A stretch of DNA of 64,000 nucleotides from Candidatus Zixiibacteriota bacterium (GTDB lineage Bacteria; Zixibacteria; MSB-5A5; GN15; FEB-12), in contig JBFMGC010000010.1 of NCBI GenBank assembly GCA_040752815.1, positions 1 through 64,000 on the forward strand, in the 5' to 3' direction. The notes under the pieces are model-generated. The model saw nothing but the letters and a program-made list of their open reading frames with translations, ran no database searches and was not told where the DNA came from. How positions within the stretch are numbered: the stretch's first letter is position 1; every line of letters begins with the position of its first letter. Below are positions 35,383 to 39,831 of this stretch, piece after piece. Made by a program: the position numbers and the translations under genes.

Positions 35383-36375
35383 TCAACCTTCGGCAGGGAC
35401 GGAGCCCTGCCGATCGAAAAACGGGACACATCTCTCAATCAAACATGGCTCCGGCTTGCCGGCAAATGGCTCCTCTCTCTGCCAGCCGGTTTTGCCGGTG
35501 GCGCGAAAGCGCTCGAGGCGGCGGATCGTGATTTCCGCGAAGATAGGATCTATATCGATGGTAATGCAGCGGCGACCCAGTCGCTCACAGGCCAGCAAAG
35601 TCGTGCCCGAGTGCGCGAAGAAATCTATCACTGTGCCGCCCGGTTGCGATGAGGCCGCGATGATTCGCTCGATCGCCTTCAGCGGCTTCTGCGCGTAGCA
35701 GCCCGGCACGTTTTCCTCCATGCGGTAGAATACCTGCTGGATATCGACCCAGACATTTCCGGGGCGGATGCACTCGGAGTGCGATCGCTCCAGATTCTCC
35801 GTTCGGGATCCACCTACATCCTTATAGTACCCTCTGAGAATTTTCGGGATATCCGTGTACTGGACCTCAAACGACGGCTCGCCTTTCGTGTAGTAGAGCA
35901 GTTCCTGGCGGACGGCCATCCAGTTTTTCGGCGTGCCGTAACCGCGCTGATTGCGCATGGTGATGAATGAACGCGATTCAAACGGCGTCTCGGCCATCAT
36001 GGCCATAAACTGCGGGAGCGGTTGGAAGTGGCGCTTTTGGTCAGCTCCCAGCCAGACGTAGAGAGCGCTGTTTTCTGCCAATAGGTCATAGGTGATATCG
36101 ATCCACTATCGGCACCAGGCGACATAATCCTCCACCGGTCTCTGTTCGAAAGCGATCATGTTGTAGGGCGGATCATGCACCGCGAGAGTCGGGCGCGCCT
36201 GATCGATAATGAGCGATCTCACGAACCCCATATCGGCGGCATCGCCGCAAGCGACTACATGGCCGCGGAGCGGATCGCGCCAGATATCGCCTATGCTTAG
36301 GCGACAGGATGGCAGCCTTTGACAACGAACAGACTGATCAGACTGATCCCCAACATGAACACCAACTTTCGGCAC
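35383..36375 (-). pseudogene. Beta-class DNA N4/N6 methyltransferase split by in-frame amber codon
   Basis: One reading frame runs from GTG 36375 to 35383 with a single TAG at 36106-36108. Before it, 89 codons hold HVVACGDAADM and the catalytic DPPYN (68-72). After it come ALYVWLGADQ, the target-recognition region and the AdoMet motif IDFFAHSGTTLLACERLG. The order DPPY then motif I is beta class. The junction reads VAWCR-stop-WIDITYDLLAENSALYVW, collinear with intact relatives, so a point nonsense mutation is likely, unless amber is read through. The stop codon and last residues (QGSVPAEG) come from a family C palindrome. No cognate endonuclease is adjacent. Confidence 0.8.
35391..35415. repeat. 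Dispersed palindrome, family C copy 4
   Basis: Exact reverse complement of 31713-31737 over 25 bases. It overlaps the 3' end of the methyltransferase frame. Confidence 0.85.
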
Positions 36376-37368: not shown

Positions 37369-38967
37369 TCACCGCCCGTGCCCGGCTGGATCGGTGATTA
37401 CGCCGTTAACCGCCGATGCCGACGCGGTCGCCGGCGAACAGATGAACAACTCGGAACCGTCGCGCAAGCGGGGTCCGAACCAAAACGTGGTCAGCCCGCG
37501 TTCCCCTGTTGCCGGCAACGGGAATCCGCTCAAGCTGCCGGGATGTTGCACGATTGCCCCCGCCTCGATATACACGCGAATCAACCCTTTCTTGAGCGCC
37601 TCGAGATAAACAGAGCGCGAACCAGGAACAACCGTCAGGCGACAACCGTCGTGCACTTCGTGGCCCCTGATAATATCAGCAGCCACTCGAAGATCCTCGA
37701 ACCGTCCCGCCATGCATCCGCCCACGAACACCATGTGAACCGGCAGGTCACGCATCTCCGCCACGGCGCGGGACTCGATCGGTTTGTCAACTGGAGCCGC
37801 CTGAGGCACAAGATGGTCGATATTGATCTGGTACAGTTGACGGTATTCGGCGTCCTTGTCCGGTACGAGCGGCTGATATCGAGTCATCGTGCGTCCGGTG
37901 AGATATCGCCGCGTGGTGGCGTCATACGCGCACAGCGCACCAACCGCACCGGTGTAGGTGCTCAGCGCGGCCAGAGTGTAGCGCTCGCCCATGGTCATCT
38001 GAGAAACTGCCGCCCCAGTGTATTCGATCACTCGTCCGGCCAGCTCTTCCGACGCGAGCTGCCTGATTACCGACAGGGCGATATCAATAGCCGAGACTCC
38101 ACGGCCGCGTCTGCCGCTGATGACCACGCGGACCGTCTCCGGTACGATGAGGCGGTACTTGCCGCCGGCCCACACCGCGGCCAGATCATGCGGATTGACA
38201 GCTATCGCCAGTCCGGCCATGGCGCCGAATCCGATGGTCTGGCCACCAACACCGAGCGTCATACTTCCCGGCACGAGATGTCCCTTTTCCAGCGCCACCT
38301 GGGGGCAGTTCCCCTCCTCGACATCGTGGAACGCCCTGATCCCCTGGCGGCGCGCGAATTCGCGCACCAGGCGGTGCGCCTCGACTACCGTGCCGCCGAT
38401 CTCATCATGGCTGTGACCGGGCATGAGGACTACCCGCGACGGATTCCAGACCCGTTCCTCGTTCTTGAGGAACTCCTTGATCACCCCGGCGGCGCCGTCG
38501 GGAGCGATAGTGAGGTCCGGCTCGACCTCTATCGACTGTCCAGGATCGACGCGGTCGGTCGCAGCAGCCCGGGCCAGTATCTTTTGTACCGCGGTCCTCT
38601 TACCGTAGAGGGAATTGGCATGCGCCGGAAGGGCCAGGCCAGGGAAAGCGAATTCCAGTTGTTCCAGCTTGAGAAACGCCGGCTTTTCCCTGAAACCGTA
38701 GCGACGGCGCCAGTTGTAAAACGCCGCCTTGGAGATTCCGAGTTCGAGGCCGGCTTTCTCGTCGTCTCCGTACCGCTCCCACAGATTGCGAATATCCTGT
38801 TCGGAGAACTTGGGCAGCGAGTACTTGGGGACGTTTTTCTTGCGCCGCCAGTAGGCAACCAGATATGCCGGAACGCCGCCGAGACGCTCGCCTATCTTTT
38901 CGTCAGTCTTGTAAAGCCTCTGAAGCCGGAGCAGTTCCGATTTGGTTGGAATCTTGCCCCTTTTCAT
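37369..38967 (-). CDS. Double helix-turn-helix protein fused to a degenerate aconitase-like domain
   Basis: 532 residues. Residues 1-92 hold two matching helix-turn-helix units: TDEKIGERLGGVPAYLVAYWRRKK and DDEKAGLELGISKAAFYNWRRRYG. Residues 120-532 follow the aconitase/isopropylmalate-dehydratase large-subunit fold: GHLVPGSMTLGVGGQTIGFG, VPETVRVVISG, GGCMAGRFEDLRVAAD, VVPGSRSV, EAGAIVQHPGSLSGF and ICSPATASASAVNG. The catalytic DSH has become GGQ, the N of 'CTNxR' is A, and two of three iron-sulphur cysteines (normally GCSMC) are gone; only the first remains. It is therefore probably not a dehydratase but a DNA-binding regulator sensing a small carboxylate (inference). The ATG overlaps the HIT gene stop by four bases (ATGA). 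Confidence 0.8.
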   Translation of the reverse strand: MKRGKIPTKSELLRLQRLYKTDEKIGERLGGVPAYLVAYWRRKKNVPKYSLPKFSEQDIRNLWERYGDDEKAGLELGISKAAFYNWRRRYGFREKPAFLKLEQLEFAFPGLALPAHANSLYGKRTAVQKILARAAATDRVDPGQSIEVEPDLTIAPDGAAGVIKEFLKNEERVWNPSRVVLMPGHSHDEIGGTVVEAHRLVREFARRQGIRAFHDVEEGNCPQVALEKGHLVPGSMTLGVGGQTIGFGAMAGLAIAVNPHDLAAVWAGGKYRLIVPETVRVVISGRRGRGVSAIDIALSVIRQLASEELAGRVIEYTGAAVSQMTMGERYTLAALSTYTGAVGALCAYDATTRRYLTGRTMTRYQPLVPDKDAEYRQLYQINIDHLVPQAAPVDKPIESRAVAEMRDLPVHMVFVGGCMAGRFEDLRVAADIIRGHEVHDGCRLTVVPGSRSVYLEALKKGLIRVYIEAGAIVQHPGSLSGFPLPATGERGLTTFWFGPRLRDGSELFICSPATASASAVNGVITDPAGHGR

Positions 38968-39452
38968 TGGCGGCGCAGCTCCTGTCGCAGGACTTCGTAG
39001 ACAGGTTCCAGCGGGATCGACACCACTGCGGTCTGCCCGATAACCGGCATGAAATTGGTGTCACCGTTCCAGCGCGGCACGACATGCATGTGCACATGCC
39101 CGGGAATGCCCGCGCCCGAAAGGCGACCGAGGTTCATGCCGACATTCAGGGCGTGGGGCTTGAGACGCTTCTTGATCGCGACTACAGTCATGCGGATAAG
39201 GTCGAAGAACTCGGCCGCCTCGTCCGCCTTGAGACTTTCCAACTGGCTGACATGGCGATTGGGGACAATCAGGGTGTGACCGGTATTGTACGGGAACTTG
39301 TTGAGGATGATGAAGTTCTTCTCGCCGCGATAGAGAATCAGATTCTCGACCGAATCCTCCATGCGGAACCGGTTGCACAAGATGCACCCTTTCTCCTTTT
39401 TGCCCAGGATAAACGCGGCTCGCCATGGAGCCCACATCGTATTGCCGGCCAT
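38964..39452 (-). CDS. HIT-family hydrolase
   Basis: About 162 residues from ATG 39452. It starts GNTMWAPWRAAFILG, a conserved opening in bacterial HIT proteins of the Ap4A-hydrolase/adenylyltransferase type, with a CILC zinc pair. The core NTGHTLIVPNRHVSQLESL and the triad GHVHMHVVPRWNGDTNFMPVIG follow. The frame extends to 39674 but that part crosses repeats and lacks similarity. Family members hydrolyse or transfer nucleoside monophosphates; this subgroup often acts on dinucleoside polyphosphates. It is coupled to the HTH-aconitase-like gene by an ATGA overlap, so the two products may function together. Confidence 0.88.
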   Translation of the reverse strand: MAGNTMWAPWRAAFILGKKEKGCILCNRFRMEDSVENLILYRGEKNFIILNKFPYNTGHTLIVPNRHVSQLESLKADEAAEFFDLIRMTVVAIKKRLKPHALNVGMNLGRLSGAGIPGHVHMHVVPRWNGDTNFMPVIGQTAVVSIPLEPVYEVLRQELRRQ

Positions 39453-39831
39453 ATATGTCAATATACGGTGCCGTGGAACGGCGCAACAGCGAAATTGAAA
39501 AGCCCTTCTTGCTATCTGATTGACCGATAGCGGCTTGGTGGGCGGTCGGCCTATGCGTGTTTGCCTCGGGAGGGTGCGAAGATGGGCCGAAGCATATTTC
39601 TTTGTGTCGCGGGCACTTAGGGGGAGATGTTTGCGTGCGACAGGAGACAGGCCGAGATCCTTGGGACCACCCACCGGGGCGGGATCCAGGCACGCCTTTA
39701 TCTTAGGCGACCCATCATTTTGCCGGGTTACCTCGTGCGTAGTGGACGTCCTCGTCCACCACGACGCGCCGATGCCCCAGGGGTTGGCCCTGCGGTGAGT
39801 TTAGCAGCTTCGGTGGGCCACCGAGACGGCC
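39453..39831. other. 379 bp gene-free region with family A palindrome
   Basis: Between the DUF885 gene and the HIT gene no gene is convincing. A family A palindrome lies at 39735-39764 and partial family B-like text (GGTGGGCCACCGAGACGG) near 39811-39830. The rest, 39480-39730, shows no recognisable element. The HIT promoter should lie near 39460-39520. Confidence 0.55.
39735..39764. repeat. Dispersed palindrome, family A copy 3
   Basis: In reverse orientation it reads CGTGGTGGAC-GAGGAC-GTCCACTACGCAC, one base different from copy 1 at 3975-4003. Confidence 0.85.

Follow-up and report, generated by a model that had tools for sequence, protein, structure and literature searches.

Transcription regulators in which a helix-turn-helix (HTH) module is joined to a metabolic enzyme fold that is catalytically dead or altered include PurR of B. 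subtilis and the ROK repressors. The aconitase fold is, to our knowledge, not among the enzyme folds that such regulators use. Enzyme and transcriptional repressor can also be one and the same protein, as in the PutA-type trigger enzymes (PMC6978683), and those aconitases that have a second, regulatory role, such as AcnB, act as RNA binders (PMC6978683). Here we describe a gene in a stretch of 64,000 nucleotides from a Candidatus Zixiibacteriota genome (the window), for which an earlier note had proposed two HTH units fused to a non-catalytic aconitase-like fold, coupled to a HIT hydrolase, with the aconitase-like pocket sensing a carboxylate. The note knew of no described family of this architecture, and our searches of open-licence papers likewise returned no description of an HTH-aconitase fusion; HTH regulators that arose from dead enzymes are already known, and it is one with an aconitase fold for which that literature yielded no account. 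We consider it probable that the protein is a phylum-specific DNA-binding regulator derived from a LeuC-type enzyme and linked to HIT, and that its aconitase shell does not serve as a carboxylate sensor.

Domain layout and catalytic losses of the window protein

The gene, its domains and the adjoining elements lie on the reverse strand:

37369..38967 (-), HTH-HTH-aconitase-like protein (P0001), intact open reading frame of 532 aa with ATG start
38830..38949 (-), HTH unit 1 (residues 7-46), AlphaFold2 helices 9-18, 22-28 and 34-43
38692..38808 (-), HTH unit 2 (residues 54-92), AlphaFold2 helices 56-66, 69-76 and 80-90
37387..38595 (-), aconitase/LeuC-like domain, domains 1-3 (residues 125-527), from NCBIfam PRK00402 and Foldseek 4kp2
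38239..38247 (-), lost catalytic triplet, G241-G242-Q243 in place of DSH
37702..37716 (-), CMAGR in place of CTNGR, first cluster cysteine retained
37522..37545 (-), HPGSLSGF in place of CxxC, second and third cluster cysteines gone
38964..39452 (-), HIT-family gene (Pfam HIT, E=5.6e-16), its stop overlapping the HTH-aconitase start (ATGA)
39460..39465 (-), putative -10 box TATATT of the HIT/HTH-aconitase operon, read from the sequence
39512..39537 (-), candidate operator CAAGCCGCTATCGGTCAATCAGATAG ahead of the HIT promoter, with two CAA half-sites that are 15 bp apart, conserved in part of family f1

Two similar HTH units at the N-terminus had been proposed in the earlier note, and our analysis agrees. 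In the AlphaFold2 model of the protein (mean pLDDT 80) they form two three-helix HTH bundles, and global alignment of unit 1 with unit 2 gave a score of 33 when compared to a mean of 9.8 for shuffled sequences, a value that 0.08% of 5000 shuffles reached. BLASTP did not detect this internal repeat and neither unit passed the Pfam cut-off; residues 75-92 of unit 2 gave a weak HTH_Tnp_1/HTH_23 match. A Foldseek search of the PDB with the HTH found nothing significant, the top match being the Mos1 transposase at E 0.43, and the weak matches at the head of the list were DNA-binding transposase and homeodomain pairs. The conserved core of unit 1 (DEKIGERLGG..LVAYWRRKK) is strong in f1, which is the window protein's family and the largest one, and the recognition-type helices, WRRKK and YNWRRRYG, are conserved. 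A role in a defence system was considered and set aside, the sole PADLOC hint being a weak DrmC match over the HTH (E 0.005).

The assignment of the remaining chain to an aconitase/LeuC-like fold is backed by three kinds of search. Pfam places it in the aconitase superfamily (PF00330, E=2.5e-48, 165.7 bits vs a gathering score of 28.7), phmmer against the PDB retrieved 4kp1 (E=8.8e-61), and the nearest structure found by Foldseek was 4kp2, the large subunit of M. jannaschii homoaconitase (E=7.4e-41, TM 0.89 by target). Motifs of the fold and scaffold are retained, namely GRFDDLR, PASRxVYLEALKKGLIR and DKDAEY. The NCBIfam model PRK00402 matched residues 125-527 with 297.6 bits, which is below its cut-off of 385.

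The active site itself is largely gone, and the individual replacements are those that the note had listed. D165-S166-H167 (pig aconitase numbering) reads G241-G242-Q243, CTNGR reads CMAGR and the CxxC stretch reads HPGSLSGF, so that one of the three cluster cysteines is left (C418). The positions of the substrate arginines R447 and R452 are not occupied by arginine, and altogether 2 of the 12 catalytic positions are retained. LeuD is absent from the window's genome, in which matches to Aconitase_C (PF00694) are limited to two single-chain aconitases. Thus, the window protein falls short of a functional LeuC or HacA in its Fe-S cysteines, DSH, substrate arginines, LeuD and NCBIfam score, and with catalytic residues and LeuD gone it is non-catalytic in this lineage, as had been proposed. 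The note had asked whether the losses are shared; they are common to relatives and hence inherited, which rules out a sequencing error or a loss unique to this protein.

Phylum-wide occurrence, the HIT operon and the intact branch

When the HTH pair alone was used as the query, it was found in 120 of 132 Zixibacteria genomes, in a single copy in each. The 12 genomes without a match are mostly incomplete assemblies, with G044 and G002 as the exceptions. Spread beyond the phylum was not seen: none of 254 outside genomes carries the pair, and the one weak match among them (G228, E=6e-4) falls on the Fis-type HTH in a sigma-54 activator. One scan of contigs gave 13 relatives. Nearly all of these are from MAGs titled Zixibacteria or GN15 (one is titled 'bacterium'), and they are full length, shortened by contig ends alone, or C-terminally divergent. 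Family f5 and other families represent shortened, very divergent versions of the protein; in f5, f7, f9, f10, f18 and f19 (L119-L135) we observed that the HTH pair is retained and that the C-terminal part is short or scores weakly against the family model. The best explanation of this sequence distribution is a phylum-specific fusion that goes back to a single old event.

At 87 of 87 loci, the gene immediately upstream and in the same orientation is a HIT gene; 86 of these loci were recognised by clustering, and the last one (L061) carries the gene in a partly masked stretch. As genomic context the HIT link claimed in the earlier note is therefore very strong, and it suggests a functional tie between HIT and the HTH-aconitase protein. 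Elsewhere in the neighbourhood, a gene for an N6_N4_Mtase-type DNA methylase (window 35383-36375, reverse strand) contains a single in-frame stop (..VAWCR*WIDITYD..), and its relative in L079 is uninterrupted at the corresponding position.

The phylum also holds versions of the protein in which the enzyme looks complete. Families f6, f12, f13 and f14, to which we refer as the intact branch, comprise eight HTH proteins in an alignment with the phylum's own LeuC paralogues. The five members that were checked position by position retain all 12 catalytic positions, and the other three (L136-L138) were placed in the branch by their close match to other members and their position in the tree. LeuD with the GSSREQA substrate motif lies directly downstream at every intact-branch locus where the search reached that far, and the proteins pass the PRK00402 cut-off with 578-591 bits (590.9) vs 385. 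They reach no NCBIfam equivalog cut-off, and the neighbouring genes that were seen suggest no pathway. The earlier note had held against its own reading the possibility that homologues with the same N-terminus carry all catalytic residues and that the losses in the window are mere errors. The first part turned out to be right, in the intact branch; the second did not hold, because the losses elsewhere are inherited.

Intermediate states are present as well. L041, L063, L065, L070 and L078 have three cysteines without DSH, and L078, which keeps 8 of the 12 positions, is accompanied by a LeuD in which the GSSREQA motif reads GGADCGQA. As a separate observation, L051 and L126 (f10) have a LeuD with an intact GSSREQA directly behind a very degenerate HTH-aconitase gene; the partner of this LeuD may be a different LeuC that the genome encodes elsewhere.

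In a quick maximum-likelihood tree, the HTH-LeuC proteins form one clade with respect to the LeuC paralogues of the phylum (SH-aLRT 99), and the intact branch is sister to the remaining HTH-LeuC proteins, with a support of 82 for this one node. The same tree, read under irreversible loss and with the highly divergent families scored as lost, gives about 12 losses of the cysteine trio and about 10 of DSH. Since the intact branch has the same HTH pair on a LeuC with all catalytic residues, together with LeuD, we conclude that the fusion probably arose on a working enzyme, which decayed later and repeatedly.

Genomes G007, G101, G102, G106 and G109, which encode intact HTH-LeuCD, have no single-chain aconitase, neither AcnA nor the type of about 655 aa, and contain one to four LeuD-size genes, while nearly all other sampled genomes have a single-chain aconitase. 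We do not claim that the enzyme decayed upon replacement by a TCA aconitase, because this is essentially one phylogenetic contrast and because the idea is also weakened by the presence of other LeuCD pairs in most of the intact branch.

Selection on the two parts and the role of the protein

We compared how strictly the HTH and the aconitase part are held. Across 28 f1 sequences, the columns of the HTH have a mean entropy of 0.37 bits and those of the aconitase part a mean of 1.56. The 12 positions that make up the pocket and the cluster site reach 2.80, and none of 20,000 random sets of 12 columns was as variable as the latter. The same 12 positions are invariant in five aligned intact-branch proteins. 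The dN/dS values, which are rough because dS is saturated in several pairs, follow this pattern: among f1 pairs with measurable dS they range from about 0.003 to 0.033 for the HTH (about 0.02) and from 0.10 to 0.28 for the aconitase part, the latter part giving 0.05-0.06 in the intact branch, where HTH dN exceeds aconitase-part dN in two of three pairs. With the HTH near-invariant and the pocket the most variable region, selection evidently preserves the protein, its HTH more tightly than the rest, and the former active site has been free to change.

The fusion, its conservation, the losses, the HIT operon and the intact branch are read from sequence, and from them we infer DNA binding, regulation, autoregulation, a scaffold role and the tie to HIT. 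In the history that we propose, a tandem HTH module would have been fused once, long ago, to the large subunit of a LeuC/HacA-type [4Fe-4S] dehydratase downstream of a HIT-family gene. An operon of the order HIT - HTH-LeuC - LeuD was probably the ancestral arrangement and would have produced a catalytically competent DNA-binding enzyme, a state that the branch of f6, f12, f13 and f14 appears to retain. The window's lineage would then have lost LeuD, the cluster ligands, DSH and the substrate arginines, the protein surviving as a pseudoenzyme. Selection on its HTH pair is very strong, and the pair most likely regulates transcription by binding to a fixed DNA site, with its own operon probably among the targets; a regulatory role is suggested here by the presence of the HTH pair. 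The aconitase shell may serve as a scaffold, or as a surface for oligomerisation or for binding a partner, rather than sense a carboxylate.

A candidate for the DNA site is found in the promoter of the operon. Upstream of HIT and ahead of the TATATT -10 box, an element of 26-27 bp is conserved in part of f1, for which the best likelihood returned by the motif finder was 101 (width 18) vs 53-57 in shuffled sets. We counted it genome-wide with the strict pattern YAANNNNYTNNNNNNYAAKNRGATAG and used the reversed pattern as the control, tallying the counts by hand. There were 64 vs 4 reversed occurrences in the 54 f1 genomes and 70 vs 16 in the phylum's remaining 78; the 254 outside genomes gave 96 vs 61 (f1 vs outside, Fisher p=1.3e-7). 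Of 30 f1 sites that were fetched, a simple ORF test places most between genes. Several f1 sites lie just upstream of promoter-like -35/-10 boxes of genes that, named by eye, are outer-membrane-type, gyrB-like or peptidase-like. A tandem direct repeat suits a tandem HTH; sites outside the operon resemble an inverted TTG-N5-CAA as much as a direct repeat. Moreover, about half of the f1 loci have no such element ahead of HIT, despite a near-invariant HTH there, and the element perhaps belongs to another factor for this reason. As a candidate binding site of the HTH pair the promoter element is a lead, not a finding. It is consistent with a more far-reaching version of our reading, which we entertain tentatively, in which the protein would be a phylum-wide global regulator whose tandem HTH reads tandem CAA half-sites at its own HIT operon and at other promoters, the starting point, a DNA-binding, cluster-bearing LeuCD enzyme, being still represented by living relatives.

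Other roles for the aconitase part were weighed against a scaffold. A one-component regulator, in which a di- or tricarboxylate bound in the aconitase pocket switches DNA binding, would account for the retention of the fold with its GRFDDLR, PASRxVYLEALKKGLIR and DKDAEY motifs, and PurR and ROK, as HTH regulators with dead enzymes, sense ligands in this way. We nevertheless regard it as unlikely, and this part of the earlier note's proposal was not supported: nowhere does the domain vary more in f1 than at the 12 pocket and cluster positions, which is the main evidence against a carboxylate sensor there, and R447 and R452, which hold the carboxylate, as well as the SSR contributed by LeuD, are gone. 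A second alternative, which we judge quite unlikely, starts from the association with HIT at all 87 loci and the overlap of the two genes in the window, and posits that the shell offers a binding surface for nucleic acids or nucleotides and cooperates with HIT (for example on adenylylated nucleotides or RNA), with the HTH pair serving as an RNA- or protein-binding module instead of a transcription factor. Five arginines that are fixed in f1 at positions where LeuC mostly differs (R207, R289, R353, R427 and R464) would provide the basic residues for it and possibly form a new surface; against it, the WRRKK/YNWRRRYG recognition-type helix resembles those of DNA binders, and the top fold matches, weak as they are, belong to DNA-binding proteins. 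It is very doubtful that the protein works like IRP1, as an Fe-S or redox sensor with a cluster that responds to iron or oxygen and thereby governs the binding of nucleic acids. A non-catalytic cluster is possible in the five relatives that keep three cysteines without DSH, but a single cysteine disfavours such a switch in the window protein, most degenerate relatives are without the trio, and its loss was repeated. Finally, a decaying remnant with no set function would fit the fast-evolving aconitase part and the shortened, divergent families, but is hardly credible for a gene kept in 120 of 132 genomes with mostly open reading frames and a dN/dS well under 1 in both parts.

Significance and comparison with known systems

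With a regulator derived from a LeuC-type enzyme as our preferred reading, the family places within one phylum and one conserved operon a start (an HTH enzyme with LeuD), intermediates (cysteines kept, DSH lost, a degenerate LeuD still there) and an end state (a free pocket and a near-frozen HTH), all of them extant, so that the conversion of an enzyme into a transcription factor becomes directly testable. If the global-regulator reading is true, the path from enzyme through trigger enzyme to pseudoenzyme transcription factor could be studied in a single phylum. The family suggests a core regulator in a phylum that is uncultured and little studied, and it carries a warning for annotation: in domain searches these proteins score as aconitase or isopropylmalate dehydratase, and in most of the phylum the catalytic residues are missing.

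Among described systems, clear homology over aconitase domains 1-3 links the fusion to the LeuC/HacA large subunits (PRK00402, TIGR01343; 4kp1, 4kp2), and the intact branch resembles them further in passing the subfamily cut-off and adjoining LeuD. The fusion differs by its extra N-terminal HTH pair, and the window protein in addition by a score below the cut-off and by being without two cysteines, DSH, the substrate arginines and LeuD. IRP1 and AcnA/AcnB/CitB likewise have an aconitase fold in a regulatory role, but they are single-chain proteins that keep their cysteines, have no HTH and bind RNA via the aconitase fold; when compared to the four domains of single-chain IRP1, the window protein consists of domains 1-3 only and has one cysteine. 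Like the PutA-type trigger enzymes, the fusion combines DNA binding and a metabolic enzyme in a single chain, a likeness that, judged by sequence, fits the intact branch only; enzyme fold and DNA-binding module are different ones, and the enzyme is dead in the window's lineage. With PurR and ROK, the window protein has in common an HTH fused to a degenerate enzyme fold, and it differs from them in that the former aconitase active-site pocket lacks the conservation expected of an effector pocket.
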